NCBI GenBank assembly: GCA_021838635.1
Contig: JAKCDC010000002.1
Span: 1 to 64,000 of the forward strand
From: Pseudomonadota bacterium
Lineage (GTDB): Bacteria; Pseudomonadota; Gammaproteobacteria; Steroidobacterales; Steroidobacteraceae
Reading direction: 5' to 3'
Length of the DNA stretch: 64,000 bases
Shown here: one piece after another, positions 7,011-60,059 of the stretch
How the letters are laid out: every line of letters begins with the position of its first letter
Numbering within the stretch: the first letter of the stretch is position 1
Program-made: the position numbers and the translations under genes
The notes under the pieces: model-generated
What the model was told of the DNA's origin: nothing
The model's input: the letters and a program-made list of their open reading frames with translations, nothing else
Database searches by the model: none

Positions 7011-7020
7011 GGGGTGCGGG

Positions 7021-9787: not shown

Positions 9788-9825
9788 GATAATATCAATT
9801 GATATTATATTAATTCAATATTATC
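9788..9825. promoter_or_regulatory. Palindromic operator array upstream of marR
   Basis: A perfect 20-bp palindrome, ATAATATCAATTGATATTAT (9789-9808), is followed by a further inverted element AATATTATC (9817-9825), giving three related half-sites in an AT-rich patch inside GC-rich surroundings. MarR-family dimers bind such palindromes next to their own promoters. The position, 10-47 bases before the marR start, fits autorepression of the efflux operon. Confidence 0.7.
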
Positions 9826-9834
9826 TCTTTACTT

Positions 9835-11429: not shown

Positions 11430-11438
11430 ACTGTCCCC

Positions 11439-12965: not shown

Positions 12966-12969
12966 TGTG

Positions 12970-14508
12970 ATGGCACGCGCCGGAATGTATGTTCGCCACG
13001 GCAGCTGCCTGCTCATCGCGGCTGCGGCGGCCGGGCTTGGCGGCTGTGCGGTGGGGCCTGCCTTTCATCGTCCGCCGGTACCGGCCGGCGAACACTATCG
13101 TCCCGCGGGCGAACAGGTGCGCGGTGAGCGCGCCCCGTCGAGGGCGTATCGGGAGCGCACAACGCTCGGTCTTGGCGCGAGCGGGCCGTGGTGGCAGTTG
13201 TTCCGCTCCGCGCAGCTCGATGCGTTGGTCCGCACGGCACTTGCCGACAACCATGATGTCGCGGCCGCGCAGGCGGCGCTCCAGCAGGCGCGCGCAGGGC
13301 TTACGGTGGGCGCCGCCGGGCGCTATCCGCAGATCGGCTTCAGTGCCGGGGTCGGACGACAGAAGTACGGCGCTGAATTTCTCGGTCCTGACGCGTTCGC
13401 TCCGTTCAGCTACGTGGCCGGTGGCGTCAGTGTCGCCTATCAGCTCGACTATCTCGGCCAGGTCCGCCGCAGCGTGCAGGAGGCGCGCGCCGCCGAGCAG
13501 TATCAGCACAGTGAACTCGCCGCCACGCGATTGATGCTCAGCGGACAGGTGGCCACCGAGGCGCTCGACATCGCCACGGCCCGTGCCGAAATCCACGCCG
13601 TGCGCAACCTGCTGCGCGAGGATCGCGCGAACCTGAAGCTGGTGCGCGCCGCGGTCGCCGCCGGCTCCGAGCCGCGCCTCGATGTGCTCAGCGCGCAGAC
13701 CCAGCTTGCCAGTGATGCGACGTTGCTGCCGCCGCTGTATCAGCGGCTCACCACCGCGCAGCATGCGCTGGCCGTGCTGCTTGGCCGCACGCCGGCCTCT
13801 TGGCACCGTCCTGACCCGCGCCTGAGCGAGATGCGTCTGCCGACGCAGGTGCCGGTCGCGCTGCCGTCACTCTTGCTGAAGCGCCGTCCGGACATCCTCG
13901 CCGCCGAGGCGCAGCTGCGGGCCGCGACGGCCGCGGTTGGCATCGCGACGGCGAACCTGTATCCGCAGATCTCGCTGAGCGCGACGCTGAGCGAAGAGGC
14001 GCTGCGGCCGCAGCACCTGTTCGATGCCAGCTCGCTCGCCTGGTCGCTGATCTCGGGATTGACGGCGCCACTGTACGAGGGCGGGAAGCTGCACGCCGAG
14101 CGACGCGCGGCGCTTGATGTGCTGCATGAGCGTGCCGAGCTCTATCAGCAGGTGGTGATCAGCGCCTTCGGCCAGGTGGCCGATGCGCTCGATGCGTTGC
14201 GTCACGATGCGCAGCTGCGCGCCGCCGAGCACCGGGCGCTTGTGCTCTCGCGCCGGCGGGTGCGTCTCGAGCGGGCGAGTTACCAGGCGGGTAATTCCGG
14301 TCTGCTACCGGTTCTCGATGCACAGCGTCAGCGCGAACGGGCGCAGCTCGGTCTTCTGGCCGCCGAGCATCGCCAGTACCTCGACACCATCACGCTGATG
14401 TTGGCGGCGGGCGGCCGGGTGACTGCGGCCAGATCGGCCGCCGCCGCCGCAGCCGCGGTCCCTACAGCCCCGAGAGGCTCAGTCCGCCGGACTTCGCCTG
14501 GATTTTGA
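12970..14508 (+). CDS. OprM/NodT-type outer-membrane efflux lipoprotein
   Basis: 512 residues from the ATG at 12970 (a GTG at 12967 is also in frame). The signal peptide ends in the lipobox LGGC (Cys26). The first OEP repeat includes PWWQLFRSAQLDALVRTALADNHDVAAA, and the second includes LPSLLLKRRPDILAAEAQLRAATAAVGIATANLYPQ, the hallmark of the NodT subgroup. It forms the trimeric channel of the EmrAB pump. Its last 47 bases overlap the 3' end of the convergent SPOR-lipoprotein gene; the final residues (after AAAAAVP) are low complexity and probably dispensable. Confidence 0.92.
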   Translation: MARAGMYVRHGSCLLIAAAAAGLGGCAVGPAFHRPPVPAGEHYRPAGEQVRGERAPSRAYRERTTLGLGASGPWWQLFRSAQLDALVRTALADNHDVAAAQAALQQARAGLTVGAAGRYPQIGFSAGVGRQKYGAEFLGPDAFAPFSYVAGGVSVAYQLDYLGQVRRSVQEARAAEQYQHSELAATRLMLSGQVATEALDIATARAEIHAVRNLLREDRANLKLVRAAVAAGSEPRLDVLSAQTQLASDATLLPPLYQRLTTAQHALAVLLGRTPASWHRPDPRLSEMRLPTQVPVALPSLLLKRRPDILAAEAQLRAATAAVGIATANLYPQISLSATLSEEALRPQHLFDASSLAWSLISGLTAPLYEGGKLHAERRAALDVLHERAELYQQVVISAFGQVADALDALRHDAQLRAAEHRALVLSRRRVRLERASYQAGNSGLLPVLDAQRQRERAQLGLLAAEHRQYLDTITLMLAAGGRVTAARSAAAAAAAVPTAPRGSVRRTSPGF

Positions 14509-45934: not shown

Positions 45935-46483
45935 ATGAGGCGCTTGCGGGGTTTCGTCTGGGCAAGCCTGATGGGGGTGATGCCAGCGCTAGGCGCGGGG
46001 GCGCATGTCGTGCCCGCGGCGGCGGCGGTGGGGCAGCCGGCGGTGTGGCGCACGTATGATCTGATCGTGGATCTGGACAAGCTGCCGCGCACCTACACCT
46101 GCGACCAGCTGTGGTACGTGTTCCGCGGCGTGCTGCGGCGCCTTGGTGCACCCTCCGACGGCCTGCACATCCTCCCCTATCGCTGCAGCAGCACGGCCTC
46201 TGGAGACCTCCGCTCCCCGCGCGTCCAGGTGAGTTTCCGTATGCCCTCCATCCTGCACGGGACGGCCGTCCGGTGGGCACAGCTGCGCGCGGTGCGTCGC
46301 ACCGTTACCGTGCAGCCGGGTGAGCCGAAGCGGTTGCAGCCGACCGACTGTCGGCTGCTGCGCCAGATCCGTCAGACGTTGCTCGCAACGCTTCCCGTGC
46401 GGGTGCTCAGCAGCGACCTGCGCTGCAGCGCCGGGGCACATTTCGGTGTGACGGTACGGGACTGGGTGGCCGCCCCGCACTGA
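45935..46483 (+). CDS. Hypothetical exported protein with conserved-looking cysteines
   Basis: About 182 residues from ATG 45935 (AGAGG at 45921-45925); GTG 45917 and ATG 45926 are alternatives. Signal peptide RGFVWASLMGVMPALGAGAHVVPAAAA. The mature protein starts near WRTYDLIVDLDKLPRTYTCDQLWYVFRGVLRRLG and contains four cysteines (YTC, YRC, TDC, LRC), suited to two disulfides in the periplasm. I do not recognise a family. Its neighbours, an esterase and a convergent sodB, offer no functional link. Confidence 0.6.
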   Translation: MRRLRGFVWASLMGVMPALGAGAHVVPAAAAVGQPAVWRTYDLIVDLDKLPRTYTCDQLWYVFRGVLRRLGAPSDGLHILPYRCSSTASGDLRSPRVQVSFRMPSILHGTAVRWAQLRAVRRTVTVQPGEPKRLQPTDCRLLRQIRQTLLATLPVRVLSSDLRCSAGAHFGVTVRDWVAAPH

Positions 46484-46558
46484 CGCGCCGCGGACCTCGG
46501 GCCCGGGGGCCGGAGACGCCGCCTGCCAGACGACGCCTCCGGGCAGAGCACAGCGCGC

Positions 46559-47167
46559 TCAGGCCGCCGCGAGTTCAGCGGCTGCGAATTCGAAGTTGGC
46601 CAGTTTCCCGAGGAAGTTGTCGGCAAAATCCGCGCGGCGGTTGCGGAAGTCGACGTAATAGGCGTGCTCCCACACATCAAGCACCAGCAGCGCCTTGCCC
46701 TCGCCGGTGGCGAGCGGGGTGCCCGCGTTGCCCGTCTTGGTGATCTTCAGCCGTCCGTCGCTGCCGAGCACCAGCCAGGCCCAGCCGGAGCCGAACTGGC
46801 CGAGCGCGGCCGCCTTGAAGGCGTCCTTGAACTTCTCCACGCTGCCGAAATCCCCGGTCAGCTTCTTCTCCAGGCTGCCCGGGATGCCGCCCCCGGTGGC
46901 CGAGAGGGACTTCCAGAACAGGCTGTGGTTCCAGTGCTGTCCGGCGTTGTTGAACACCGGGGTGAGATCGTCGCGGCCGTGGGCCATGCGGATGATCTCC
47001 TCGAGGCTCTTGCCCTTGAGCGCGTCGTGCTTCTCCACCAGACCGTTCAGTGCGGTGACGTACGCCTGGTGATGCTTGCCGTGATGCAGCTCCAGAGTTT
47101 CCTGGCACATGCCGTGTGCGGCGAGCGCGCCGGGCGCGAAGGGAAGCGAGGGTAGTGTGAAGGTCAC
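46559..47167 (-). CDS. sodB: Superoxide dismutase, iron type
   Basis: 202 residues from a GTG preceded by GGAGGAG. Metal ligands: His28 (LHHGKHHQAYV), His81 (QHWNHSLFW), Asp164 and His168 (LDVWEHAYY). Gln77 before WNH is the position-69 glutamine that marks Fe-SOD rather than Mn-SOD. Cytoplasmic; converts superoxide to O2 and H2O2. Monocistronic and divergent from the CLC channel gene. Confidence 0.95.
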   Translation of the reverse strand: MTFTLPSLPFAPGALAAHGMCQETLELHHGKHHQAYVTALNGLVEKHDALKGKSLEEIIRMAHGRDDLTPVFNNAGQHWNHSLFWKSLSATGGGIPGSLEKKLTGDFGSVEKFKDAFKAAALGQFGSGWAWLVLGSDGRLKITKTGNAGTPLATGEGKALLVLDVWEHAYYVDFRNRRADFADNFLGKLANFEFAAAELAAA

Positions 47168-47313
47168 GGTGGCTCCTCCGTCAGTAATGCCGATCCGGGG
47201 TGGGCGAGCCCAGGAGGCTAGGAGACTTTTTGGAATTTGTCTAGGAGTGTCCTGGGAGCTGATCGGGCATAATGCTGCGCCCGAGAACGCCTCCCCCGTC
47301 TCCGGGGAGACCG

Positions 47314-49098
47314 ATGCAGCTCAAGGCCCAGGCAAAAAAAATCACGCGCCATCCCTTCCGCCTGCTGCTGCGGTTGCGTATGGCGCTGTTCGGACACGAA
47401 GAGCTCTTCGGCATCGTGTTCTGGGCGACGCTGATCGGCATCGCCGGCGCACTCGCCAGCATCCTTTTCCGCGCCGGCATCCGCCTGTGCGTGCGCATCT
47501 TCACCGGCTTTTGGACGCACGCCGAGCACGGCTCGGGACTCGTTCCGATCGCAGTGCGACTCGCCTGGTGGCACCGCGCGATCATCCCGGTCGTCGGCGG
47601 ACTGCTCGCCGGCGCGCTGCTGCTGCTGCTGAGGCATCGCTTCGTTTCTTCCAAGGCCGTCGATTACATCGAGGCGGTCAACGTTGGTGATGGGCGGATC
47701 GGATTTCGCGCCTCGATCCTGAAGAGTCTCGGCTCGATGCTCACCATCGCCTCGGGGGGCTCGATCGGTCGGGAAGGCTCGATGGTGCAACTCGCTGCGA
47801 TGCTCGGGTCGCGTATCGGGCTGCTGGCGCGCGCACCAGTGCCGCGGCTGCGTCTGATGGTTGCGTGCGGCGTGGCGGCCGGTATTGCCGCCGCGTACAA
47901 CGCGCCGATCTCCGGGGCGCTGTTCGCCTCGGAGATCGTGCTCGGCTCGATGGCCATGGAGGGATTCGTCCCGCTGGTCATCTCCTCGGTGATCTCTAAC
48001 GCGACGCTGCACAGAGTGACGCACTTCACGCCGGTGTTCTTCGTGCCGCACGTCTCGGTGGCGAGCAACTGGGAGCTGGTGTTCTATCTGCTGCTCGGCG
48101 TGCTGCTCGGGCATCTTGCCCCGCCGTTTCTCTCGCTGCTTGATTTCAGCAAGTCGAAGTTCGTGAAATTGAAGGTGCCGCTGTATCTGCAGCTGGCGCT
48201 CGGCGGCCTCGGCGTCGGACTGATCTCGGTGTTCGTGCCCGAGGTCTGGGGTAACGGCTACAGCGTGGTGAGCAGCATGCTGCTCGGCAACGTGTTCGGC
48301 TGGACGCTGCTCGCGATTTTGCTGGCGAAGGTGCTCGCCACCGCCTCGACCGTCGGATCCGGCGGCGTGGGCGGTGTGTTGACGCCCTCGCTGTTCATCG
48401 GCTCGGCGGTCGGGACTTTGTTCGGTGGCGTGCTGCAGTGGCTGATGCCGCACGTGATCACGCAGCCGGTCGCGTTCGGGGTCATCGGCATGGGGGGGTT
48501 CCTGGCCGCCACCACGCAGGCGCCGCTCACCTCCATTCTGATGATCTTCGAGATGACCGTCGATTACCACGTGGTCCTGCCGCTGATGCTGACGTGCGTG
48601 ACGGCGTATTTCACGGCCAAGGTCTATCGGCACGGCAACTCGGTGTATACCGCGGCGCTGGCACATACGATCGTCGCCGAGGAGGGTGATGACTGGCGCG
48701 TGCGCACCGTCGAGCCGCTGATCAAGCCGGCCGCGGTCGTCGTGCCGCGCGGCACGACGCTCGCCGAGGTGTTCGAGCGCCTCTCGCGTCGATCGGTCCG
48801 GCGCGTGTACGTCACGGACGTGGACGAATTGGTCTCCTGGTTCCGGCCGCGCGATATTCACGAGCGGCTGCAAAAGGGCGAGATCACCCTGCAGACGCAT
48901 GTCGAGACGGTTGCCCAGCCGGTCAATGAGGCCCTCTCGCCCGAGATGTCTCTCACCGAGGCGCTCGACGGGTTCCTGCGCGAGAAGGCGCGCACTCTGC
49001 CGGTGACGCCGGGACAGTGGCGCCACACGCTGATCGGAGAGGTGTCGCGCGATGACGTGCTGCTGGCCATCCGCGATCGTCTGACGGTGACGAAATGA
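47314..49098 (+). CDS. CLC-family chloride channel/transporter with C-terminal CBS domains
   Basis: 594 residues from ATG 47314, with GGGGAGA upstream; an ATG at 47272 would add 14 Pro-rich residues. CLC motifs: GGSIGREGSMVQ (the gating Glu is present), NAPISGALFASEIV and GSGGVGGVLTPSLFIG. About 18 helices are followed by two CBS domains from about residue 460 (IKPAAVVVPRGTTLAEVFERLSRRSVRRVYV and VNEALSPEMSLTEALDGF). The gating Glu is compatible with a Cl-/H+ exchanger; in enteric bacteria such proteins aid extreme acid resistance. Stop overlaps the rlmL start by four bases. Confidence 0.9.
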   Translation: MQLKAQAKKITRHPFRLLLRLRMALFGHEELFGIVFWATLIGIAGALASILFRAGIRLCVRIFTGFWTHAEHGSGLVPIAVRLAWWHRAIIPVVGGLLAGALLLLLRHRFVSSKAVDYIEAVNVGDGRIGFRASILKSLGSMLTIASGGSIGREGSMVQLAAMLGSRIGLLARAPVPRLRLMVACGVAAGIAAAYNAPISGALFASEIVLGSMAMEGFVPLVISSVISNATLHRVTHFTPVFFVPHVSVASNWELVFYLLLGVLLGHLAPPFLSLLDFSKSKFVKLKVPLYLQLALGGLGVGLISVFVPEVWGNGYSVVSSMLLGNVFGWTLLAILLAKVLATASTVGSGGVGGVLTPSLFIGSAVGTLFGGVLQWLMPHVITQPVAFGVIGMGGFLAATTQAPLTSILMIFEMTVDYHVVLPLMLTCVTAYFTAKVYRHGNSVYTAALAHTIVAEEGDDWRVRTVEPLIKPAAVVVPRGTTLAEVFERLSRRSVRRVYVTDVDELVSWFRPRDIHERLQKGEITLQTHVETVAQPVNEALSPEMSLTEALDGFLREKARTLPVTPGQWRHTLIGEVSRDDVLLAIRDRLTVTK

Positions 49099-51266
49099 GT
49101 GCGTACTCGCTGCTCGCTACGGTGCCACCGGGGTTGGCGGATCTGGTGGCGGCCGAACTGACCGCGCTCGGCGCGGAGTCGGTGCGCGAGCGCACCGCGG
49201 CCGTGGCCTTCACCGGTACGCTGCAGACCGCCTACCGCTCGTGCCTCGAGTCGCGGGTCGCCAACCGGATCCTGCTCGAGATCGCGCGTTTCCAGGCGCC
49301 GAGTACCGAGGCGTTCTATCTCGCCGCGCGCGCCGTGCCGTGGCAGGAGCATCTGCCGGACGGTGCGAGCCTGGCGTGCGAGTTCACCGGCCGTCACCCG
49401 ACCATCGATAACAGCCACTTCGGGACGCTGAAGCTCAAGGACGCCATCGTCGACGCAATGCGCTCGCTGCGCGGGACGCGTCCGGATGTCGTACGCGACC
49501 GGCCCTCGGTCCGTGTGCATGCGCATGCGCACGGGACCGAAGTCACACTGTATGTCGATCTGGCCGGCGAGAGCCTGCACCGCCGGGGCTATCGGGGCGA
49601 GGGACTCGCGGCACCGCTGAAGGAAAACGTGGCTGCCGGCATCCTGCTGCGCAGTCAGTGGCCGCAGCTCGCCGCCGAGGGGGCTCAGCTCCTCGATCCG
49701 CTGTGCGGCTCGGGCACGCTGGTGATCGAGGCGGCCCTCATCGCCGCCGGCCGGGCGCCGGGGCTGACGCGGGAGTATTTCGGTTTCCTCGGCTGGCGGG
49801 GGCACGATCCGGCGCTCTGGCAAAGACTGCGCGCCGAGGCGCTGCAGCGCTGCCGTACGGCCTCGCCTGACGCTCAGCCGCTGCGCGGCCGGGATCGGGA
49901 TGCGGCGGCCGTGCGCGCCGCGCTGGCCAATGCCGCGCGCGCGGGCGTCGGGCAATGGGTGCGCTTTGAAGTCGGGACGCTCGAGAGCGCTCGGCCGGGC
50001 GCTGCGGGCGTGGGGCTGCTCTGCACGAATCCGCCGTACGGGGCGCGGTTGGAGGATCTGCAGGCCGCGCGCGCCACGCATCGGCAGCTCGGTGCGACGT
50101 TGCGCGAGCACTTTCAGAGTTGGCAGGCCGTGGTGCTCACCGGAGCGCCGCAGCTCGGCATGGAGCTCGGGATCCGCGCCGCGCGCACGCATACTGTCTG
50201 GAACGGTGGGATCGAATGCCGGCTGCTGCGCATGCGCATCGAGCCGGACAGTCTGCGCGAGCCGGGCACGCTGGCCCGTCCGGACAACCGGCTCGCCGAG
50301 TCGCCGGGGGCGCTGATGTTCGCCAATCGGCTGACGAAGAACCTGAAGCGCCTGCGCGCGTGGGCTGAGCGCGAGTCCGTGTCCTGCTACCGCCTGTATG
50401 ACGCGGACATGCCGGAGTACGCCTTTGCCATCGATCGGTACGTGAGTGCCGTCGGGGGCGAGACGTGGCTGTACGTCCAGGAATATGCCGCCCCGCGCAC
50501 CATTGAGGCGGAATCGGTGCGCCGGCGCCGCGCCGAAGTGCTCGCGGCGCTGCCGGCAGCCACGGGTGTGCCGCGCGAACGGATCAAAGTGCGCACCCGC
50601 AGGCGCATCCACCGCGGCGAGCAGTATGCCAAGGTGGGCGGGGAGGGCGAGTTCCAGGTGGTCAGCGAAGGGGGCCTGAAGTTCCGTGTGAACTTCACCG
50701 ACTACCTCGATACGGGCCTGTTTCTTGATCACCGCCTGACCCGCGAGCGGCTGCGGCGCGCCGCGCGGGACGCTCGGTTCCTCAATCTCTTCGCATACAC
50801 CGGTACGGCCACGGTGTATGCCGCGGCCGGGGGTGCGCGGGCCAGCACATCGGTGGATCTTTCGAACACCTATCTGGAGTGGGCGCAGCGCAATCTGGCG
50901 CTCAATGGCTTCACCGACGGTCGGCATGAACTGGTGCAGGCCGACTGCTTCAAGTGGCTCGAGGCGGCCCAGCGCGCCGCGGCGCGCTACGAGCTGATTT
51001 TCCTCGATCCGCCGACGTTCTCGAACTCAAAGCGCATGCAGGGCGTGCTCGACGTACAGCGCGATCACGGTGCGCTCATCGAGCAGTGCATGGCGCTGCT
51101 CGCCCCGGGCGGCCTGCTGGTGTTCTCAACCAACGCGCAGCGCTTTCGTCTCGACCCGCAGCTCGAGCGCCGCTACGCGCTAGCGGATGTCTCCGCCGCC
51201 ACGGTGCCGCCGGATTTCGTGCGCAATCCGCACATTCACCGCTGCTTCGAGCTGCGCGCGCGCTGA
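49095..51266 (+). CDS. rlmL: Bifunctional 23S rRNA methyltransferase RlmKL
   Basis: 723 residues, the full fused length. N-terminal THUMP domain, then the RlmL half with GRHPTIDNSHFGTLKLKDAIVDAM, LDPLCGSGTLVIEAALIAAG and the TNPPYGARLED catalytic motif. The C-terminal RlmK half has RVNFTDYLDTGLFLDHRLTR, LNLFAYTGTATVYAAAGGA and the LDPPTFSNSKRM motif. It methylates G2445 (N2) and G2069 (N7) of 23S rRNA. Translation is coupled to the upstream CLC gene by an ATGA overlap; the 3' end overlaps the convergent RHH gene by about 30 bases. Confidence 0.96.
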   Translation: MSAYSLLATVPPGLADLVAAELTALGAESVRERTAAVAFTGTLQTAYRSCLESRVANRILLEIARFQAPSTEAFYLAARAVPWQEHLPDGASLACEFTGRHPTIDNSHFGTLKLKDAIVDAMRSLRGTRPDVVRDRPSVRVHAHAHGTEVTLYVDLAGESLHRRGYRGEGLAAPLKENVAAGILLRSQWPQLAAEGAQLLDPLCGSGTLVIEAALIAAGRAPGLTREYFGFLGWRGHDPALWQRLRAEALQRCRTASPDAQPLRGRDRDAAAVRAALANAARAGVGQWVRFEVGTLESARPGAAGVGLLCTNPPYGARLEDLQAARATHRQLGATLREHFQSWQAVVLTGAPQLGMELGIRAARTHTVWNGGIECRLLRMRIEPDSLREPGTLARPDNRLAESPGALMFANRLTKNLKRLRAWAERESVSCYRLYDADMPEYAFAIDRYVSAVGGETWLYVQEYAAPRTIEAESVRRRRAEVLAALPAATGVPRERIKVRTRRRIHRGEQYAKVGGEGEFQVVSEGGLKFRVNFTDYLDTGLFLDHRLTRERLRRAARDARFLNLFAYTGTATVYAAAGGARASTSVDLSNTYLEWAQRNLALNGFTDGRHELVQADCFKWLEAAQRAAARYELIFLDPPTFSNSKRMQGVLDVQRDHGALIEQCMALLAPGGLLVFSTNAQRFRLDPQLERRYALADVSAATVPPDFVRNPHIHRCFELRAR

Positions 51267-51469
51267 GCCGGCAGCGGCTCCTCTTCCGGTCGCCACGGCC
51301 GGCCCTGCCGCTCCTCAATATACATACGGATCAGCCGGCGCACGACCTGCGACGGGGTGGCGTCCTCCTCGGCGCACAGGCGCTCGAAAACCGTTTTTTT
51401 GCGCGGATCGATCAGGATGGTCAGGCGGGCGGTACGCGTCTCCAGGGGCACGAGGCGAGTCCTCTTCAC
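51236..51469 (-). CDS. Ribbon-helix-helix DNA-binding protein
   Basis: 77 residues from a GTG at 51469, or 88 from a GTG at 51502; no good Shine-Dalgarno favours either. The strand ETRTARLTILIDPRKK and helices TVFERLCAEEDATPSQVVRRLIRMYIEER form an RHH/CopG fold. It is divergent from the hyf-like operon, 49 bases away, so it may control that operon and itself. No toxin partner is adjacent. Confidence 0.7.
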   Translation of the reverse strand: MKRTRLVPLETRTARLTILIDPRKKTVFERLCAEEDATPSQVVRRLIRMYIEERQGRPWRPEEEPLPAQRARSSKQR

Positions 51470-51518
51470 ATTTAAACGACATCCAATGATAATACGACGC
51501 ACATTCTAGTGCACCCCC

Positions 51519-53531
51519 GTGATTACCCCATTGCCTAAGCTGCTGGTCGGCTGTATCGCGCTCCTGCTCGGCTGGGTGGCGGTGGGCTTGGCGGGCCTGC
51601 TGCGTCCGCGCAGCGTGCGGCTCGCCGGGCGGATCCTCTTCCCACTCGGGGCTCTGATCGGTTTTGCGCTCGCGGCGCTCGCCGTGACCAGCCTGCTCGG
51701 CGGGGGTATCGAGCGGATGGTCCTGCCGATCGGGCTGCCGGGCCTGCCGGCGCATCTGCGGCTCGATCCGCTCTCCAGCGTGTTCCTGGCGCTGCTCGGT
51801 GCCACTGCGGGCGGGATCTCGCTGTTCGCCGGCGGATATTTCCGCGTCGGACAGGGCACCGCGCCGGGCCTGCTCGGTCTGCAGTACCACCTGTTCCTCG
51901 CCAGCATGGGCTGGGTGCTGATCGCCGCGGACGCCTACAGCTTCCTGCTCGCCTGGGAGGCGATGGCCCTGACGTCGTATTTCCTGGTGGTGACCGAACA
52001 CCGCCGCCCCGAGATTCGCCGCGCCGGGTTGATCTACCTGCTGATGGCCCACGTCGGGGCGCTCGCGATCCTGCTCGCCTTTGGCGTGATGCACGGCGCA
52101 GGTCCGCTCACCTTCCACGCGATGCGGACTGCACACCTGTCATCCGGCTGGGCCGCCGTGGCCTTTCTGCTGGCCCTGTTTGGCTTCGGGGCCAAGGCCG
52201 GTCTGGTGCCGCTGCACGTGTGGCTGCCGGAGGCGCATCCGGCGGCGCCTTCGCCCGTCTCGGCGCTGATGAGCGGGGTGATGCTCAAGACCGCCGTGTA
52301 CGGGATACTGCGGGTGGCGCTCGATCTGCTCGGTCCGCCTGTGTGGTGGTGGGGTCTCGTACCGCTTGCGCTCGGGCTGTTTACGATTCTCTACGGCGCG
52401 CTGTTCGCGGCGGTACAGACCGACATGAAGCGGCTGCTCGCCTACTCTTCGGTGGAGAACATCGGCGTCATCTTCACCGGCATCGGACTGACCATCGTAT
52501 TCGCCGGCTCGGGCATGCCGGCGGTGGCGGCGCTGGCGCTGCTCGCCACGCTGTATCACTGCCTGAATCACGCGATGATGAAAAGCGTGCTGTTTCTCGG
52601 CACCGGCGCAGTGCTGCACGCCACCGGCGAGCGCAATCTCGGCCGCCTCGGCGGTCTGATTCACCGCATGCCCTGGGTGGCCTGGTTGACGCTCATCGGG
52701 GCGCTCGCAATCGCCGGTCTGCCGCCGCTGAACGGGTTCGTCTCCGAGTGGCTGCTGCTGCAATCGTTTCTGTTCGGCGATCAGGTGCCGCACACGTTCG
52801 TGAACCTGCTGATCCCGATGGGCATGGCCGTGGTGGTCCTCGGCGCGGCGCTCGCCGGTTATGTCATGGTCAAGTTCTACGGGGTCATCTTCCTCGGCCG
52901 GCCGCGCGAGGCCGCGCTCGAGCAGGCGCATGACTGTGGTTGGCTCGAGCGGCTCGGACTCGCCTGGCTCGCGTTCGGCTGTCTGGCGCTCGGTCTGCTG
53001 CCGGTGCCGGTGATCGGCGCGCTCAGCCGGGTGAGCGCGCAGCTGGTCGGGGCGGTGGTGCCGCAGACCTCGGCATACGGGTGGTTGCTCGCCCCCGTGC
53101 CCGGCCGCTCCGTCTCCTATGGACCGGCGGTGTTGCTGACGGCGACCGTGGCGGTGGTGCTGCTGACGGTGCTCGCGGTGCGGCTTCTGTTCCCTCAGCG
53201 CGTGCGGCGCGTGAGCGCCTGGGACTGCGGTTTCGGTGCCCTCACCGCGCGCATGCAGGATACGGCCGAAGGCTTCGGTCAGCCGATCCGGCATCTGTTC
53301 CAGCCGTTCTTCGAGATGCAGCGCGAACTGCCGGCGCCCGAGGACAGCGCGCCGCGCTACCGCATCGTCATCCGCGAGCGCATCTGGACGCTTGTGTATG
53401 AGCCGCTGTGCGCCGCGACCGAGGGGTTGGCCAACATCGCCGCGCGCGTGCAGCAGGGGCGGATCTCGGTGTACCTGCTGTACAGCTTCGTGACGCTGCT
53501 GGTGCTGCTCGCCGTGGCGTTGCTCTCATGA
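51519..53531 (+). CDS. hyfB: Hydrogenase-4-like antiporter subunit HyfB (NuoL/M family)
   Basis: 670 residues from a GTG. About 16 helices. The antiporter-type core is visible in LLAWEAMALTSYFLVVTEH, FLLALFGFGAKAGLVPLHVWLPEAHPAAPSPVSALMSGVMLKTAVYGILR and DMKRLLAYSSVENIGVIFTGIG, containing the Lys and His residues of the proton path. It corresponds to HyfB/HycC, a proton- or cation-translocating membrane subunit. First gene of a six-gene operon; the stop overlaps hyfC by four bases. Confidence 0.9.
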   Translation: MITPLPKLLVGCIALLLGWVAVGLAGLLRPRSVRLAGRILFPLGALIGFALAALAVTSLLGGGIERMVLPIGLPGLPAHLRLDPLSSVFLALLGATAGGISLFAGGYFRVGQGTAPGLLGLQYHLFLASMGWVLIAADAYSFLLAWEAMALTSYFLVVTEHRRPEIRRAGLIYLLMAHVGALAILLAFGVMHGAGPLTFHAMRTAHLSSGWAAVAFLLALFGFGAKAGLVPLHVWLPEAHPAAPSPVSALMSGVMLKTAVYGILRVALDLLGPPVWWWGLVPLALGLFTILYGALFAAVQTDMKRLLAYSSVENIGVIFTGIGLTIVFAGSGMPAVAALALLATLYHCLNHAMMKSVLFLGTGAVLHATGERNLGRLGGLIHRMPWVAWLTLIGALAIAGLPPLNGFVSEWLLLQSFLFGDQVPHTFVNLLIPMGMAVVVLGAALAGYVMVKFYGVIFLGRPREAALEQAHDCGWLERLGLAWLAFGCLALGLLPVPVIGALSRVSAQLVGAVVPQTSAYGWLLAPVPGRSVSYGPAVLLTATVAVVLLTVLAVRLLFPQRVRRVSAWDCGFGALTARMQDTAEGFGQPIRHLFQPFFEMQRELPAPEDSAPRYRIVIRERIWTLVYEPLCAATEGLANIAARVQQGRISVYLLYSFVTLLVLLAVALLS

Positions 53532-54478
53532 ACGCCCTCGAGTGGCTCACCCAGCTGCTCGAGGGGGTGGTGGCGCTCGCCGCGGCCCCGGCACTGCTCG
53601 GCTGGGTGAATCAATGCCGTGCCTGGCTGCAGAACCGCCGCGCACCGAGTCTCTGGCAGCCCTACCGCAATCTGCGCAAGCTGTTGCACAAGGAGGTGCT
53701 GATCGCCGAGAACGCCTCGCCACTGTTCCGGCTTGCGCCGTACGTGATCTTCGGCGCCATGGTGCTCGCCGCGGGCATCATCCCCTCGATGGGCACGCGG
53801 CTGCCGCTGGTGGCCTCGGCCGACGCCATTGCCCTGGTCGGGTTGTTCGCCGCGGCGCGCATGTTCATGGCGTTGGCGGCGATGGATGTCGGCACCGCGT
53901 TCGGGACCATGGGCGCGCGGCGCGAAATGATGGTCGGTTTTCTCGCCGAACCGGCGCTCCTGATGGTGATCCTGGTCGCCTCGCTCACCTCCTCGAGCAC
54001 GGCGCTGCCGGCCATCACCGAGGCGCTCGCCTCGGGACATCTCGGACTGTCCCCCTCGCTCGCCTTCAGCGCGGTGGCCTTCGTTCTGGTGCTGCTGGCG
54101 GAGAACGCGCGCATCCCGGTGGACAATCCGGCCACCCATCTTGAGCTCACCATGATTCACGAGGCGATGCTGCTTGAGTACTCCGGCCGCCACCTCGCGC
54201 TGATGGAATGGGCCGCGCAGTTGAAGTTGTTCAACTACGTGTGCATCGGCTTCGCGTTGTTCCTGCCCTGGGGGGTGGCGGTCGGGGCCATCGGCCCGGT
54301 CGGGTTGCTCGTGGCCGTCCCGGCGCTCGCGCTGAAGCTCGCCGCCGCCGGCGCCGGCCTCGCGCTGATCGAGACGGTCTCGGCGAAGATGCGCGTGATG
54401 CGCATCCCGGAGTTTCTCGCCACCGCCTTCCTGTTCGCGGTCCTCGGACTGCTGGTGCACGTGCTGCTCGGAGCGTGA
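53528..54478 (+). CDS. hyfC: Hydrogenase-4-like subunit HyfC (NuoH family)
   Basis: 316 residues from the ATG overlapping the hyfB stop; the longer frame is shadow. NuoH-type marks: NQCRAWLQNRRAPSLWQPYRNLRKLLHKE near the N-terminus, and ENARIPVDNPATHLELTMIHEAMLLEYSGRHLAL, the conserved acidic quinone/proton-channel loop of the family. About eight helices. It anchors the soluble arm (HyfG/HyfI) to the membrane subunits. Confidence 0.9.
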   Translation: MNALEWLTQLLEGVVALAAAPALLGWVNQCRAWLQNRRAPSLWQPYRNLRKLLHKEVLIAENASPLFRLAPYVIFGAMVLAAGIIPSMGTRLPLVASADAIALVGLFAAARMFMALAAMDVGTAFGTMGARREMMVGFLAEPALLMVILVASLTSSSTALPAITEALASGHLGLSPSLAFSAVAFVLVLLAENARIPVDNPATHLELTMIHEAMLLEYSGRHLALMEWAAQLKLFNYVCIGFALFLPWGVAVGAIGPVGLLVAVPALALKLAAAGAGLALIETVSAKMRVMRIPEFLATAFLFAVLGLLVHVLLGA

Positions 54479-54483
54479 CGGTG

Positions 54484-55152
54484 ATGACCCATCTGCCCCT
54501 GGATCAACAGCTGCTCGATTCCTGTGCGGCGCTGCTGCTGCTGCTGTCCTTTGCGATGCTCTCGCAGCGGCGCATCGTGACGCTCGTCAATCTCTATGCG
54601 CTGCAAGGCGCGGTGCTCGCCGCCGCGACGCTGTTGCTGGCGTGGCGCACCGGCGAGGACCATCTGTATCTGTCGGCCGCGCTCACCTTGGCGCTGAAGG
54701 TGGCGTTCCTGCCCTGGCTTTTGCACCGCCTGATCCGCCGGCTCGATGTCTATTGGGACACCGAGCCGCTGCTGAATGTCTCCGGCACCATGCTGGCGGG
54801 CCTGGTGATCGTGGTGTTCGCATTCGCGCTGGCGCAGCCGATCACGCGCCTGGCGGACACCGCCACACGCAGCGCGGTCGGTATCGCCATCAGCGTCGTG
54901 CTGCTGGCGTTCCTGATGATGATCACCCGGCGCAAGGCCATGTCACAGGTCATCGGCTTTCTGTCGATGGAAAACGGCGTGTTCTTCGGCGCCATGAGCG
55001 CCAGCTACGGCATGCCGATGGTGGTCGAGCTCGGCGTCGCGCTCGATGTGCTGGTGGCGGTGCTCGTGCTCGGGGTGTTTTTCTTCCAGATTCGCGAGCG
55101 CTTCGAGAGTCTCGATCTGCATCATCTCGAATCGCTCAAGGAGCACGACTGA
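54484..55152 (+). CDS. hyfE: Hydrogenase-4-like subunit HyfE (NuoK-like)
   Basis: 222 residues from ATG 54484 (GTG 54481 is adjacent in frame). Strongly hydrophobic, with VNLYALQGAVLAAATLLLAW, ALKVAFLPWLLHRLIRRLDV and KAMSQVIGFLSMENGVFFGAMSASYGMPMVVELGVALDVLVAVLVLGVFFFQIRERF; the last block is the NuoK-like signature with its buried Glu residues. It matches HyfE of hydrogenase-4. Six bases separate it from hyfC and one base from hyfF. Confidence 0.88.
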   Translation: MTHLPLDQQLLDSCAALLLLLSFAMLSQRRIVTLVNLYALQGAVLAAATLLLAWRTGEDHLYLSAALTLALKVAFLPWLLHRLIRRLDVYWDTEPLLNVSGTMLAGLVIVVFAFALAQPITRLADTATRSAVGIAISVVLLAFLMMITRRKAMSQVIGFLSMENGVFFGAMSASYGMPMVVELGVALDVLVAVLVLGVFFFQIRERFESLDLHHLESLKEHD

Positions 55153-55153
55153 C

Positions 55154-56611
55154 ATGGCACTGCTGCTGCTGTTGCTGCTGCCGGTGGCGGGCGCCGCCGT
55201 GCTGGGGGTGATCGGCGCACACCGGCGGGCGCCGGAGGTCAATGCGCTGATCAGCGTCGGGACGTTCCTGGCCGCCTGTGCGCTCACCGCACGGGTGATC
55301 CACCAGGGCACTGTGCTGCTGGGCGATGAGCAGTTCTTCATCGATCCGTTCAACGTCTTTCTGGTCGCGCTGACGGCGTTCGTCGGCATGACCACGTCGC
55401 TCTTTTCGCGGCCGTACATGCGCGTTGAACTTGAGCACGGTCGGCTCAGCGCCGGGCGGCTGCGGCTCTACCACAGCATGTATCAGCTGTTCATGTTCAC
55501 CATGCTGCTGGCGCTGACGACCAACAACATGGGGCTGATGTGGGTGGCGATGGAGGCGGCGACGCTCTCCACGGTGCTGCTGGTCACGCTGTATCGCACG
55601 CCGGGGAGTCTGGAGGCGGGCTGGAAGTACTTCATTCTGTGCGGCGTCGGCATTGCGCAGGCGCTGTTCGGCACGATTCTGCTGTACGTCGCGGCCGGAA
55701 AGGTCCTCGGCGCTCAGGGCATGACCGCGCTGCTGTGGACGCATCTGGATGCCGTCAAATCGCAACTTGAGCCGACCGTGCTCGCCCTGGCGTTCGTGTT
55801 CCTGTTGATCGGCTACGGGACCAAAGTGGGCCTTGCGCCGCTGCACAGCTGGTTGCCTGATGCGCATGCCGAGGGTCCGACGCCCATCTCCGCGGTGCTC
55901 TCAGGTTTGCTGCTGAACGTCGCGCTGTACGCGGTGGTGCGCAGCAAGGTGCTCGTGCAGGGTGCGCTGCACTCACAGCTGCCCTCGCAGATGCTGATGG
56001 GTTTCGGGCTGCTCTCGGTGGTGCTGGCCTCGCTCCTGCTGTGGCGGCAGCGCGATATCAAGCGGCTGTTCGCCTACTCCTCGATCGAGCACATGGGCAT
56101 CGCAACGTTTGCCTTCGGCATGGGCGGTGCGATCGCAACCTTCGCGGCGCTGCTGCACATGACGGTGCATTCGCTGACGAAGTCTTCGATCTTCTTCACC
56201 GCCGGTCACGCCGCGCAGAAGGCCGGCAGCCAGGCGATTGAGCGCATCCGCGGCCTGATCACGCTCTCCCCGACGGTCGGTTGGGGACTGATGCTCGGCT
56301 CGCTCGCCATCCTCGGGGTGCCCCCGTTCGGGGTGTTCACCAGCGAGTTTCTGATTCTGACGGCGGCGATGCGCGAGCAGCCCTGGGCGACCCCGATCCT
56401 GCTGGCGGCGCTTGCCGTCGCGTTCGCCGCCATTCTCTCCAAGGTGCAGCCCATGGTGTTCGGGGAGCCCTCGGCCCGGCGCCTGACGCATTCCCCGGCG
56501 CTGCTGCCGGTGTTTGCACACCTCGCGATCGTGCTGCTGCTCGGGCTGTACATCCCGCCGTACCTTGCCGAGTGGTACCGTGCGGCGGCACACCTGATCG
56601 GAGGGCCTTAG
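55154..56611 (+). CDS. hyfF: Hydrogenase-4-like antiporter subunit HyfF (NuoN/L family)
   Basis: 485 residues from ATG 55154. About 14 helices. Core motifs: NNMGLMWVAMEAATLSTVLLVTLYRTPGSLEAGWKYF, FLLIGYGTKVGLAPLHSWLPDAHAEGPTPISAVLSGLLLNVALYAVVR, and DIKRLFAYSSIEHMGIATFAFGMGG, the second antiporter-like module of hydrogenase-4. The Glu, Lys and His of the ion channel are in place. With HyfB the complex has two antiporter-type subunits, so it should pump ions if it carries out an exergonic electron transfer. Confidence 0.9.
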   Translation: MALLLLLLLPVAGAAVLGVIGAHRRAPEVNALISVGTFLAACALTARVIHQGTVLLGDEQFFIDPFNVFLVALTAFVGMTTSLFSRPYMRVELEHGRLSAGRLRLYHSMYQLFMFTMLLALTTNNMGLMWVAMEAATLSTVLLVTLYRTPGSLEAGWKYFILCGVGIAQALFGTILLYVAAGKVLGAQGMTALLWTHLDAVKSQLEPTVLALAFVFLLIGYGTKVGLAPLHSWLPDAHAEGPTPISAVLSGLLLNVALYAVVRSKVLVQGALHSQLPSQMLMGFGLLSVVLASLLLWRQRDIKRLFAYSSIEHMGIATFAFGMGGAIATFAALLHMTVHSLTKSSIFFTAGHAAQKAGSQAIERIRGLITLSPTVGWGLMLGSLAILGVPPFGVFTSEFLILTAAMREQPWATPILLAALAVAFAAILSKVQPMVFGEPSARRLTHSPALLPVFAHLAIVLLLGLYIPPYLAEWYRAAAHLIGGP

Positions 56612-56648
56612 CGATGCTCGGCACGCACCGCGGCGCGGGGAGCATCCC

Positions 56649-58121
56649 ATGCCCCTGACGGGCTGGTGGCCGCGAGCGCAGCCGGTTGCGGGCGCCCCCG
56701 GGGTGCGGCGCCTGGCTGTGGGGCCGCAGGAGTGGACGCAGGTGGCCGAGGCTGTCGCGGCCGGTGGCGGTGTGCTGCATGCGCTGTGGGTGAACGGGAC
56801 ACCCGCCGAGGGCGCACAGGTGTACGCGGTGTACCTGTGCGCCCCGGGCGCACTCGCCGTCGAACTGACACTGGCCGCCGGGGATGCACGGCCCTACCCT
56901 GGACTGCAGGGGCGCTTTCCGGCGGCCTCCCGCCTGCAGCGGGCGGCGTTCGAGCTCACCGGGGTCCGTTCGAGCGATGCGGACCGCAGAGCCTGGCTCG
57001 TGCATGCCGACCCGTATCCGTTCACGCGCGTCGACGGCGAGGGCGTCCACGAGATCGCCGTCGGGCCGGTGCACGCCGGCACCATCGAGCCCGGACACTT
57101 CCGCTTCTCGGTGGTCGGAGAGAAGGTGCTGCGGCTGGAGGCGCATCTGGGCTACGTGCACCGGGGTCTGGAGCGGCGTTTCACGGCGCTGCCGATCCTC
57201 GCCGGCCATCGGCTGGCCGCACGCGTCTCGGGCGACTCGGCGGTCGCGTTCAGCTGGGCGTACTGCCAGGCGCTTGAGGGTCTCGCCGGCGCCACGATCC
57301 CGCCGCGGGCGGCCTGGCTGCGGGCGGTGTGCTTGGAGCTTGAGCGCCTGGCGAATCACCTCGGGGACCTGGGCGCGCTCGGCAATGACGCCGGGTTCGC
57401 CTTTGGGCTCACACAGTTCTCGCGCCTGAAGGAGGATGTGCTGCGGGCAACGGCGGCGGCATTCGGCCAGCGCTATCTGTTCGATGTGCTCGTGCCGGGC
57501 GGCCTCTCGGTCGATCTGGCGGGCGACGGGGCGCGCGCGCTGGCGGATGCGATTCGCGGTGCGTGTGCCGAGAGCGCCGAATTGCGCACCATCTACGACG
57601 AACACGAGGGTGTGCGCGCGCGCTTCAGCGGCACCGGCCGCCTCGGGCCAGCGCTCGCTGCACAGCTCGGAGTGCTCGGGCTCGTGGGACGCGCCAGCGG
57701 TCAGGGGCGCGATGCGCGGCTCGATCTGCCGTGCCTGCCGTACACGGAGCTGCCGGTGGCCAAGGTCGTGTTGCATGACGGGGACGTTGCGGCGCGCGTG
57801 GCGGTGCGCTTCGAGGAAGTGCAGGAGTGCGGCCGGCTGCTGAGGCAGCTGTTGTCGAAGGTGCCGGACGGGCCGTGCACGGCGGTGCTCGAGGAGCCCG
57901 CCGATGGCGCCTTCGGTATCGGGCTGATCGAGGGGTGGCGCGGCCCGGTGCTGGTGGCGCTGCAGGCCGGGCCCGCCGGCACGGTGCGCTTCTGTCACCC
58001 GCACGATCCCTCGTGGCAGAACTGGCCGGCGCTCGAATATGCCATTCTCGGCAACATCGTGCCGGATTTCCCCTTGATCAACAAATCCTTCAACCTCTCC
58101 TACAGCGGCGTCGATCTGTAG
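56649..58121 (+). CDS. hyfG: HyfG-like large subunit without [NiFe] cysteine ligands
   Basis: 490 residues: an N-terminal NuoC-like domain (to about 125) fused to a NuoD/hydrogenase-large-subunit domain. HLGYVHRGLERRF matches the family, but the first metal site reads RVSGDS (Ser194, Ser197) where [NiFe] enzymes have R-x-C-x-x-C. The C-terminus ends NKSFNLSYSGVDL with no DPCxxC. So all four Ni-Fe cysteines are missing, and no hyp or protease genes are nearby. It is therefore an Ehr-type subunit, not a hydrogenase. Starts 37 bases after hyfF. Confidence 0.88.
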   Translation: MPLTGWWPRAQPVAGAPGVRRLAVGPQEWTQVAEAVAAGGGVLHALWVNGTPAEGAQVYAVYLCAPGALAVELTLAAGDARPYPGLQGRFPAASRLQRAAFELTGVRSSDADRRAWLVHADPYPFTRVDGEGVHEIAVGPVHAGTIEPGHFRFSVVGEKVLRLEAHLGYVHRGLERRFTALPILAGHRLAARVSGDSAVAFSWAYCQALEGLAGATIPPRAAWLRAVCLELERLANHLGDLGALGNDAGFAFGLTQFSRLKEDVLRATAAAFGQRYLFDVLVPGGLSVDLAGDGARALADAIRGACAESAELRTIYDEHEGVRARFSGTGRLGPALAAQLGVLGLVGRASGQGRDARLDLPCLPYTELPVAKVVLHDGDVAARVAVRFEEVQECGRLLRQLLSKVPDGPCTAVLEEPADGAFGIGLIEGWRGPVLVALQAGPAGTVRFCHPHDPSWQNWPALEYAILGNIVPDFPLINKSFNLSYSGVDL

Positions 58122-58123
58122 TC

Positions 58124-58627
58124 ATGCTGAAGAGCCTGCGCAAAATTCTCTCCGTCGGACTGATCTCGCAGGCGCCGCCGGCGCCGGATGAACGGCTGCG
58201 CACCGGGCAGGCGCTCGATGCGCGGATCGCCGCGGTGTTGGGCAGAACGCTGTGCATCCGCCACGTGGATGCCGGCTCGTGCAACGGCTGCGAGCTCGAG
58301 ATCCAGGCGCTCGGCAACCCGTACTACAACCTGGAGGGCTGCAACGTGCGCTTCGTCGCCAGCCCCCGTCATGCGGACCTGCTGCTGGTCAGCGGTCCGG
58401 TGGCGAAGAACATGGCCGAACCGCTGCGTCGGGTCTATGCGGCGACGCCCGATCCGAAGCGGGTCGTGGCGCTCGGGGACTGCGGTTGCACCGGCGGGCT
58501 GCTCGGACAGTGTCCGGCCGCGCTCGGTTCGGTCGCCAACGTCATCCCGGTGCACGTGGCCGTGCCGGGGTGCCCACCAAGTCCGCTGCGCATCCTGCAG
58601 GGCATCCTGACGGCGATCGAGCGCTGA
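58124..58627 (+). CDS. hyfI: HyfI-like small subunit (NuoB family, [4Fe-4S])
   Basis: 167 residues from ATG 58124; the longer frame overlaps hyfG and is not used. Cluster ligands: Cys53 and Cys56 in AGSCNGCELE (the C-x2-C spacing of hydrogenases rather than the CC of complex I), Cys120 or Cys122 in LGDCGCTGG, and Cys150 in VPGCPPSP. The N2-type cluster is thus retained although the partner large subunit lost its Ni-Fe site. Electrons could pass to a site at the HyfG/HyfC interface. Last gene of the operon. Confidence 0.9.
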   Translation: MLKSLRKILSVGLISQAPPAPDERLRTGQALDARIAAVLGRTLCIRHVDAGSCNGCELEIQALGNPYYNLEGCNVRFVASPRHADLLLVSGPVAKNMAEPLRRVYAATPDPKRVVALGDCGCTGGLLGQCPAALGSVANVIPVHVAVPGCPPSPLRILQGILTAIER

Positions 58628-58646
58628 GTGTGGATCGCCGCGGGCA

Positions 58647-60059
58647 TCAGCTCTTAAGCGGTTGCTCCCAGGGGGCGCTGCGGATCAGCGCATCGAGGCA
58701 CGCTCCGTCGACCGCGGCGCCGCGTTCGCGGCGCATGATCGTCAGGGCCTGCTCGCGCGCCATGGCGCCCCGGTAGGGGCGCTCGGCCGTGAGCGCATCG
58801 AAGATGTCCGCCACGGTGATGATGCGCGTCTCGAGCGGGATCGCCGCGCCGCGCAGGCGCTTCGGATAGCCCATGCCGTCGATTCGCTCATGGTGCGCTC
58901 CGGCGATGGGCGCCAGTTCGCCGAATATCCGCACCCGCTGCAGAATGTTCTCGGTGAGCTGCGCGTGTTGTTTGACGGCGTCCCATTCCGGCCCGTCGAG
59001 ATGGCCGGGCTTCTCCAGAATGCTGTTGCTGACGCCGAGCTTGCCGATGTCGTGCAGCAGAGCTCCGCGGTGCAGCCAGCGGCGCCGCGCGGCACTCATG
59101 CCGAGCTCACGGCCGATCCTCTCGGCGTAGCGGGCAACGCGTTGGCTGTGGCCGTAGGTGAAGTTGCTCTTCGCATCGATGATGTCGGCAAACGCCTCGG
59201 CGATCGAATCGAGTCGCGGCTCATCGATCAGGATGGTGGAGGCGGCCGGCTCAAGCGCCCAGATGCGCCCCTCGAGTCCCTCGGCGCCCAATCCGGACCA
59301 GAAGCGCGCACCGCGCGCGACGGCGAAGAAGGCTTGGCAGAGCTGCGGATCGAACCAAGTGCCGACTCTGCGGTGCACCTCGGTGCACGCCGCGCGCTCC
59401 CCGCCGACGGTGTTGAACACGTCGATGACCTGCGCGAGCAGCGCGATGCGCGCATTCAGCGGGATCTCCGCGCCGCGCAATCCCTGCGGCCGGCCATGGC
59501 CGTTCCAGTGCTCATCGAGACTGAAAATGCCCGCCGCCACCGTCGCGCCGAAGCCCAGTCGGCGCACGATGTCCGCGCCGCGCTCGCAGCGGGTGTGCAC
59601 CAGCTCGGTCGCGAGCGTCTCGCCGTTGCGGTACAGGTTGAGCAGCCGCTTGAGGCGCTCGCGCAGCGCTTCGCCGGGACCGGCGTGGCGCAGCACGAAG
59701 CGGCCGAGCTGCAGCAGGCTTTGCGAGTCAACCAGTTTGAAGTCACGTTTGGTGAGCAGCTCGTCACCGCCGTAGAGTTCCCACAGCCGCGCGGCATTGC
59801 TGCTGCAGCCGGTGTCCTTCAGCAGCAGCGTGTAGTACAGATCGCCGAGCGCCTCGGCATCCAAGCCGACCATCTGCCCGATGTGCATGCCGATCCAGCA
59901 GCAGCGCAGGCAGTGTCCCGGCGGCTGACCTTCGGTCAGGTCAAGGGCATAGCTCAGCGCACCGACGATCTCCGCCAGGCGCAGGCGGCCCGCGGGCCCG
60001 GCCTGTGCGGCGGCGGGCAGGAGCCACTCGGGAATGTCGGCGTGCGCAATGGCGTTCAT
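58647..60059 (-). CDS. HD-GYP domain protein (tandem, first copy degenerate)
   Basis: 470 residues. The C-terminal HD-GYP domain is intact: HSQRVARYAERIGRELG, LHDIGKLGVSNSILEKPGHLDGPEW and HHERIDGMGYPKRLRG, followed by VADIFDALTAERPYRGAM. Such domains hydrolyse cyclic di-GMP. The N-terminal half has a decayed copy (DLYYTLLLKDTGCSSNAARL and DEHWNGHGRPQGLRGAEIPLNARI) lacking the HD pair, probably structural or ligand-sensing. No transmembrane or receiver domain is seen. Convergent with hyfI. Confidence 0.9.
   Translation of the reverse strand: MNAIAHADIPEWLLPAAAQAGPAGRLRLAEIVGALSYALDLTEGQPPGHCLRCCWIGMHIGQMVGLDAEALGDLYYTLLLKDTGCSSNAARLWELYGGDELLTKRDFKLVDSQSLLQLGRFVLRHAGPGEALRERLKRLLNLYRNGETLATELVHTRCERGADIVRRLGFGATVAAGIFSLDEHWNGHGRPQGLRGAEIPLNARIALLAQVIDVFNTVGGERAACTEVHRRVGTWFDPQLCQAFFAVARGARFWSGLGAEGLEGRIWALEPAASTILIDEPRLDSIAEAFADIIDAKSNFTYGHSQRVARYAERIGRELGMSAARRRWLHRGALLHDIGKLGVSNSILEKPGHLDGPEWDAVKQHAQLTENILQRVRIFGELAPIAGAHHERIDGMGYPKRLRGAAIPLETRIITVADIFDALTAERPYRGAMAREQALTIMRRERGAAVDGACLDALIRSAPWEQPLKS

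Follow-up and report, generated by a model that had tools for sequence, protein, structure and literature searches.

A hydrogenase-4-like operon without nickel-iron ligands in a Steroidobacteraceae genome, predicted to encode an Ehr-type membrane complex

We analysed a stretch of 64,000 nucleotides from a Steroidobacteraceae bacterium (contig JAKCDC010000002.1, positions 1 to 64,000; hereafter, the window), in which six open reading frames (ORFs) lie head to tail on the forward strand in a tight operon, hyfB-C-E-F-G-I (51519-58627). The first of these, hyfB (51519..53531), encodes a NuoL/antiporter-like subunit of 670 aa that matches NF005086 'hydrogenase 4 subunit B' at 845 bits (cut-off 667). 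It is followed by hyfC (53528..54478), encoding a NuoH/HycD-like membrane anchor of 316 aa (PF00146, 108 bits, cut-off 27; best Protein Data Bank (PDB) match HycD, 4.1e-38), hyfE (54475..55152), encoding a membrane subunit of 225 aa, and hyfF (55154..56611), encoding a NuoM/N-like antiporter subunit of 485 aa (NF005045, 841 bits, cut-off 543). HyfE matches NF008556 at 99 bits (2.8e-28) without reaching the cut-off of 136, and its identity rests additionally on alignment with Escherichia coli HyfE. The operon ends with hyfG (56649..58121), encoding the large subunit, with 30-kDa-like and 49-kDa-like parts (490 aa; PF00346, 89 bits, cut-off 24), and hyfI (58124..58627), encoding the small subunit (167 aa; PF01058, 96 bits, cut-off 27), whose closest PDB matches are MbhJ (4.3e-36) and HycG (9.8e-30). 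HyfA, HyfD, HyfH, HyfJ and a protease gene were not found within the six-gene operon.

From its sequence, we identify the operon as encoding a predicted energy-converting-hydrogenase-related (Ehr) complex of the complex I/group 4 hydrogenase superfamily. The original prediction had likewise read the region as one operon of these six genes and of Ehr type; the ORFs and family matches bear out the former, while the latter is supported by subunit content (antiporter-like, NuoH-like and HyfE-like subunits with a NuoB-like small subunit, HyfE lying below its NCBIfam cut-off), by family-wide loss of the metal ligands, by the absence of HypD and PF00374 matches and by a clade of 30 sequences.

When HyfG was aligned with HycE and NuoD, no Ni-Fe ligand cysteine was found at the aligned positions, the four [NiFe] cysteines of HycE being replaced (C241 by S194, C244 by S197, C531 by S484 and C534 by G487). 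As originally predicted, the protein reads RVSGDS (S194/S197) in place of R-x-C-x-x-C, in the HycE and profile alignments alike, and its C-terminus, NKSFNLSYSGVDL, lacks DPCxxC. A contig scan recovered at least 577 encoding stretches, and the best 80 of these were taken as named loci and aligned with the window. No sequence in this family alignment (81/81) has more than one cysteine at the four ligand columns of its group-4-like large subunit, and the columns read S-S-S-G in 55 of 81. The first column is C in seven sequences and A in nine, and the second is S or T in all 81. Orthologues from the same genus keep the motif of the window, the first position being C in two of them (L020, L025) and A in a third (L021). 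Four control sequences of formate hydrogenlyase (FHL) carry both the ligand cysteines and the C-terminal DPCxxC.

The genome of the window (96.5% complete) gave no match to HypD or to the NiFe large subunit family PF00374, both of which were detected in an E. coli control, so that the absence of hyp genes first noted for the window extends, for HypD, to the whole genome. The operon occurs in 26 of the 37 genomes of the genus, and HypD was detected in seven of these 26 carriers (19 without) versus one of 11 non-carriers, many genomes being incomplete, indicating that the operon does not track Ni-Fe maturation. The complex is thus predicted to be unable to make or split H2. A rival view, implied by annotation names and some papers, is that of an FHL-like complex that works with a separately encoded formate dehydrogenase (FDH) and still makes H2. 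HyfB and HyfF do pass the 'hydrogenase 4' cut-offs, HycE is the closest solved relative, and the genome encodes an FDH alpha subunit at another site, but the Ni-Fe ligands, HypD and PF00374 are all absent and the operon has no HyfA, HyfD or HyfH and no iron-sulfur wire of the HyfH/HyfA type, whereas the true FHL-2 loci (L158, L159) carry fdhF, 4Fe-4S protein, hyfD, HycH, HycI and HypC genes. Published clusters near FDH genes (PMC3826726, PMC5596200) and the high abundance of Geobacter Ehr subunits with formate (PMC7894505) can be set beside this view; these associations speak for formate as donor rather than for H2 as product, and we consider an H2-making complex extremely improbable.

The original prediction had found no FDH in the window, and neither FDH nor CO dehydrogenase was seen beside the operon; the statement needs qualifying in that an FDH alpha subunit over the TIGR01591 cut-off is encoded on a different contig of the same genome. 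An FDH encoded elsewhere is a possible donor. Within the genus, FDH alpha subunits over this cut-off were found in 21 of the 26 Ehr carriers versus five of the 11 non-carriers (p=0.051). We did not adopt a formate link on this basis, given the p value, the confounding effect of incomplete genomes and the location of the genome's own FDH on another contig.

Among PDB structures, the AlphaFold model of HyfG (pLDDT 84.9; residues 117-172 poorly predicted) is best matched by E. coli HycE (7z0s_E, TMq 0.83), which also came first when PDB sequences were searched with a profile. Our reasoning on the pocket rests on two papers, which name a proton glutamate of the HycE E193 type and a canopy arginine of the R478 type (PMC9474812, PMC7684303). 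Both residues are retained in HyfG, as E147 (HycE E193, MbhL E21) and R431 (HycE R478), and are invariant in 81/81, while HycE D529 is replaced by N482. The pocket residues D196, N478, K479, N482 and Y485 are likewise invariant (81/81); the first four differ from both HycE and NuoD, and Y485 is common with HycE. This invariance argues for a functional site rather than decay, and the HyfG pocket appears to be held under selection as a site that is neither that of hydrogenase nor that of complex I.

The same pocket bears on whether the complex is a complex-I-like ferredoxin:quinone oxidoreductase that binds quinone as NuoD/Nqo4 does. The fold is shared (Foldseek TMq 0.75-0.80 to the listed E. 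coli complex I C/D chains), HyfC has a membrane-facing chamber by homology, and D247 of HyfG aligns with Nqo4 D139. The last is not diagnostic of complex I, because MbhL has the same Asp, and the quinone-headgroup residues of complex I are replaced in all 81 sequences (Nqo4 H38 by I146, Y87 by G195), while HyfI has CxxC in place of the tandem N2 cysteines, making this reading rather doubtful. The replacements also weaken the suggestion of the original prediction that the complex is 'possibly quinone-reactive', although another mode of quinone binding is conceivable. Quinone is, tentatively, the leading single guess for the acceptor, and would not be bound by the complex I residues.

As the original prediction had noted, the small subunit keeps C53, C56, C120 and C150. 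These four line up with the cluster cysteines of HycG and MbhJ and are conserved in 79 of 81 sequences, with gaps at these positions in the remaining two. HyfI thus has a CxxC and two further cysteines at hydrogenase spacing, and the tandem N2 cysteines are absent. One could invoke catalysis at the proximal cluster through an open iron, as in the sulfane sulfur reductase MBS, MBS likewise having no complete Ni-Fe ligand set and no H38/Y87 equivalents. However, the Cys loop of MBS is three residues shorter, one of its cysteines falls short of the cluster and one cluster iron has no Cys bond (PMC7684303), whereas that of HyfI is of hydrogenase length with four cysteines in place, and E147 is kept where MBS has lost its equivalent; we regard MBS-like catalysis as very unlikely.

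A motif scan of the window found no 2x[4Fe-4S] ferredoxin motif of the HyfH/HyfA type and a family scan found no HyfD in the operon, in agreement with what had been claimed for both. The 2x[4Fe-4S] motif is absent from 75 of the 80 named loci and present in both [NiFe] FHL-2 controls (L158, L159). Electron input to an operon product without a HyfH/NuoI or HyfA wire would go directly to HyfI.

Both HyfB and HyfF contain the transmembrane Glu/Lys of antiporter subunits, and the Lys of transmembrane helix 8 of HyfF is replaced by Asn, as it is in E. coli HyfF (all comparisons of the window with E. coli only). Ion pumping is consistent with these antiporter charges. The same residues, with the lack of an electron wire and the stress-type neighbours seen on some plasmids (a universal stress protein; enolase behind a fluoride riboswitch), would also suit a non-redox antiporter or ion channel that consumes proton-motive force and carries a vestigial hydrogenase cap, serving stress-induced pH or ion homeostasis. 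A vestigial cap would have no need of the conserved cluster cysteines and pocket residues, and this alternative seems unlikely.

The best explanation as a whole, to which we give a probability of about 60%, would be an Ehr-type redox-driven membrane ion pump without H2 chemistry. A soluble low-potential donor, either ferredoxin-like or a docking dehydrogenase encoded elsewhere (FDH being one candidate), would reduce the single [4Fe-4S] cluster of HyfI, which would pass electrons to a small and probably hydrophobic acceptor lodged in the former Ni-Fe cavity, between HyfG and HyfC. Reduction of the acceptor would drive ion transport via HyfC and the antiporter-like HyfB and HyfF, and expression may be controlled by a divergently encoded ribbon-helix-helix (RHH) protein. 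We infer the donor, the acceptor, the pumping and the direction of transport.

Several observations weigh against such a pump. It has no known donor, acceptor or activity, and both complex I quinone ligands are absent from HyfG. The HyfC loop reads THLELTMIHEA where HycD and NuoH have AEAEQEL, so that coupling to the membrane arm could differ. The context names no partner, as no protein of at least 90 aa outside the operon (a limit below which the 71-aa RHH gene falls) is common to more than 15 of the 80 loci, except for one antisense ORF over hyfI in 19/80, which we read as spurious. Finally, the 2x4Fe-4S motif is present in five of the 80 named loci (L035, L072, L074, L097, L100). One of the two matches in L035 is a Cys-rich low-complexity stretch at the hyfC/hyfE junction; the second, and those in the other four loci, sit outside the operon.

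Divergent from hyfB, on the reverse strand (51236..51451), lies the gene for the RHH protein, of 71 aa and of the RHH_9 family (PF19839, Pfam 2.7e-22). The 67-bp intergenic region (51452..51518) contains a sigma70-like promoter on the forward strand, TTCACA-17-GATAAT (51465-51493; one in the promoter scan versus a mean of 0.0 in shuffles), and an inverted repeat, GCAC-N6-GTGC (51499-51512), as a candidate operator. By eye, the TGATAAT block is widely conserved and the GCAC/GTGC repeat is kept in the closest relatives only.

RHH homologues were identified in 28 of 60 genomes searched, all of the same genus. Among its 26 carriers, the RHH gene is upstream and divergent on the same contig in 20, on another contig in four and not found in two, versus a homologue in four of the 11 non-carriers (Fisher p=0.0009). 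The contigs of G008, G012, G020, G027 and G032 stop before the expected position, and that of G033, a carrier with a HyfG of only 45% identity, extends to it and lacks the gene; the arrangement is therefore found in 20 of the 21 carriers whose contig extends that far. It is far from universal: in the 63 of the 80 named loci that contain hyfB and at least 600 bp upstream, an RHH gene lies within 600 bp upstream in 19, and is divergent in 15. Its position suggests that the RHH protein may regulate the operon.

The best 80 of the at least 577 stretches include some from Burkholderiales, Gallionellales, Rhodanobacter, Acidobacteria, Myxococcaceae and Steroidobacteraceae. Matches also occur in 95 plasmid records, among them ones to genuine FHL genes and to remoter homologues. 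On the Methylovirgula plasmid pHY1 (L124, 1-13980), an F-type ATP synthase operon divergently adjoins the hyfBCEFGI operon. Plasmid 3 of Variovorax sp. PBL-E5 has two distinct, adjoining Ehr operons (L122, 7074-14358; L116, 6732-13916), the first of which encodes a 4Fe-4S-NuoB fusion and is accompanied by a divergent RHH gene of its own. Rhizobium plasmid loci (L119, L120) form a sister group with the C-terminus CNKSFNCSYSGHDL and a DUF4365 gene directly 3' of hyfI.

A midpoint-rooted tree separated 30 Ehr-like sequences, as one clade (100/98), from the FHL (four) and NuoD (three) sequences included; it holds no published EhrL sequences (Geobacter, Nitrospira). The tree took in the window and 15 of the 80 named loci, which we call type 1, and left out the large subunits of L147, L151 and L153; its entries L030 and L031 correspond to the genes of L150 and L152. 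The tree has several long branches, and the joining of L154 to the group that we call type 2 may be false. Two further sets were defined, A1 with 12 orthologues of the genus (L008, with one stop, removed) and A2 with 40 of the 81 sequences.

Type-2 operons are Ehr-like, those included in the tree group within the same clade of 30, and RxCxxC is absent from all type-2 and related large subunits checked. They differ from the window type in their fused small subunit and in a fluoride riboswitch (RF01734) upstream, of which the window type has neither. The riboswitch lies about 170-260 bp before the match start of the first gene, hyfC, in five type-2 loci: L147, L151 (8309-13931) and L152 of the genus of the window, L121 (8173-17203) on a Burkholderia cenocepacia plasmid and L161 of Caballeronia. 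In the genus, it was found at four of eight related operons, the contigs of the other four ending too early to tell. In eight type-2 loci (L121, L147, L148, L150-L153, L161) the small subunit and two 4Fe-4S motifs share one open frame, and Pfam Fer4 matched on L121, which has the gene order C-E-F-G-I-B and whose island holds CrcB, DUF190, a CLC-type channel, MutS and inorganic diphosphatase. Two remoter relatives also have a fluoride riboswitch: L154, of the same genus (large subunit 34% identical to that of L121), and L160, of Alicyclobacillus (8600-10302; 31% identical), where it lies about 145 bp before the large-subunit gene, beside CrcB and DUF190. No fusion was found in L154, and L160 gave no small-subunit match.

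We found no RF01734 in window positions 46000-60000 under permissive settings or in the whole window (model R1), none in the genome of the window under stricter filters, and none in the 80 named type-1 loci (1.33 Mb) or on the 26 type-1 contigs of the genus, for which the tally is of 28 places over the cut-off, five weaker ones being omitted, none on a type-1 contig. The type-1 plasmid locus L118 does have a fluoride riboswitch about 5.8 kb from hyfB, and this precedes an enolase gene. Fluoride control of the type-1 operon was rejected on these grounds. The L118 locus (1-13982), on a Burkholderia multivorans plasmid, carries this enolase gene no more than about 6 kb from its operon, along with genes for HPr, spermidine synthase and the YoaK family.

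Baker et al. (2012) reportedly link formate hydrogenlyase genes to fluoride riboswitches. 'Formate hydrogen lyase' genes are listed behind the crcB motif by Weinberg et al. 2010 (PMC2864571), and the literature searched, mostly papers outside subscription and including the available part of PMC12595759, held no statement that such genes are Ehr genes without Ni-Fe ligands. We add that the riboswitch-linked 'formate hydrogen lyase' genes in the loci examined are, by their predicted proteins, Ni-Fe-less Ehr genes, for which the label 'formate hydrogenlyase' would be wrong. More speculatively, Ni-Fe-less Ehr complexes may be a regulated, stress-called family of pumps, with a pocket chemistry (G-D-[ST], NKSFNLxY) unlike that of hydrogenase, complex I or MBS. 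Type 1 would be the minimal form, with six subunits, a single cluster and, in the genus, an RHH repressor; type 2 would be wired for a ferredoxin-like donor, induced by fluoride, and would sustain the proton-motive force for fluoride export. If true, the 'formate hydrogen lyase' genes behind crcB riboswitches would be Ehr complexes and not hydrogenases.

We additionally noted a GC-rich hairpin of 16 bp with perfect pairing inside hyfG (56804-56850), the strongest 47-base fold among 12791 steps of 5 bases across the window. It was rejected as a conserved element, its Rfam match being at chance level and its pairing weaker in two comparable relatives. Upstream of the operon (46559-51266) are putative sodB, a CBS-domain CLC channel and putative rlmL, a synteny kept in several genomes of the same genus.

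The findings bear on annotation: hydrogenase 4 and formate hydrogenlyase are frequent labels for such genes, and neither should be applied to them when the Ni-Fe ligands are missing. The pared-down operon also occurs in cultivable lineages (Cupriavidus, Rhizobium and relatives of Burkholderia), making the question of function testable, and the fluoride link of the sister clade provides a concrete phenotype to assay. Marreiros et al. (2013) is said, by papers that cite it, to have defined Ehr complexes. They have been discussed as standing between hydrogenases and complex I, and several papers call their function unknown. Complexes without Ni-Fe motifs and of unknown function are described in Sulfobacillus (PMC4378227) and comammox Nitrospira (PMC10284858), and a group-4-like membrane complex without these motifs in Margulisbacteria, there as an FDH-Ehr complex (PMC6349859). 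Seven genes, versus six here, are described for the clusters of Sulfobacillus (catalytic subunit plus six) and Geobacter (GSU0739-45), and in Geobacter the Ehr subunits reach their highest abundance with formate (PMC7894505). In Acidithiobacillus caldus, hyfBCEFG lies near carbon-fixation genes with FDH a few genes upstream (PMC3826726); in Nitrospira, where hyfBCEFGI was named in 2017, a CO dehydrogenase adjoins the cluster of Ca. N. nitrosa and the cluster of Nitrospira resembling nitrite-oxidizing bacteria lies near FDH (PMC5596200).

E. coli FHL/hydrogenase 4 provides the closest solved structure for HyfG and HyfC and shares the E193 and R478 equivalents; unlike it, the operon has no Ni-Fe ligands, HyfA, D, H, J or protease gene. 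Pyrococcus MBS resembles the window in the ligands that both lack, and differs in its MbsN iron-sulfur wire and Mrp modules, and an under-coordinated cluster is not expected in the window complex. The closest published counterparts are the clusters of Cupriavidus metallidurans CH34 (Rmet_4666-4671) and C. necator H16 (H16_A2196-A2201), named hyfBCEFGI in 2010, with the same six genes in the same order; the paper regards them as an incomplete operon that probably does not support lithotrophy, its available text making no mention of ligand residues (PMC2864759). We recovered the CH34 locus (L117) with the order B-C-E-F-G-I and a HyfG 54% identical to that of the window. The six-gene set is thus already published for Cupriavidus and Nitrospira, and the type is widespread; new here are the divergent RHH gene and the sister clade linked to fluoride riboswitches.

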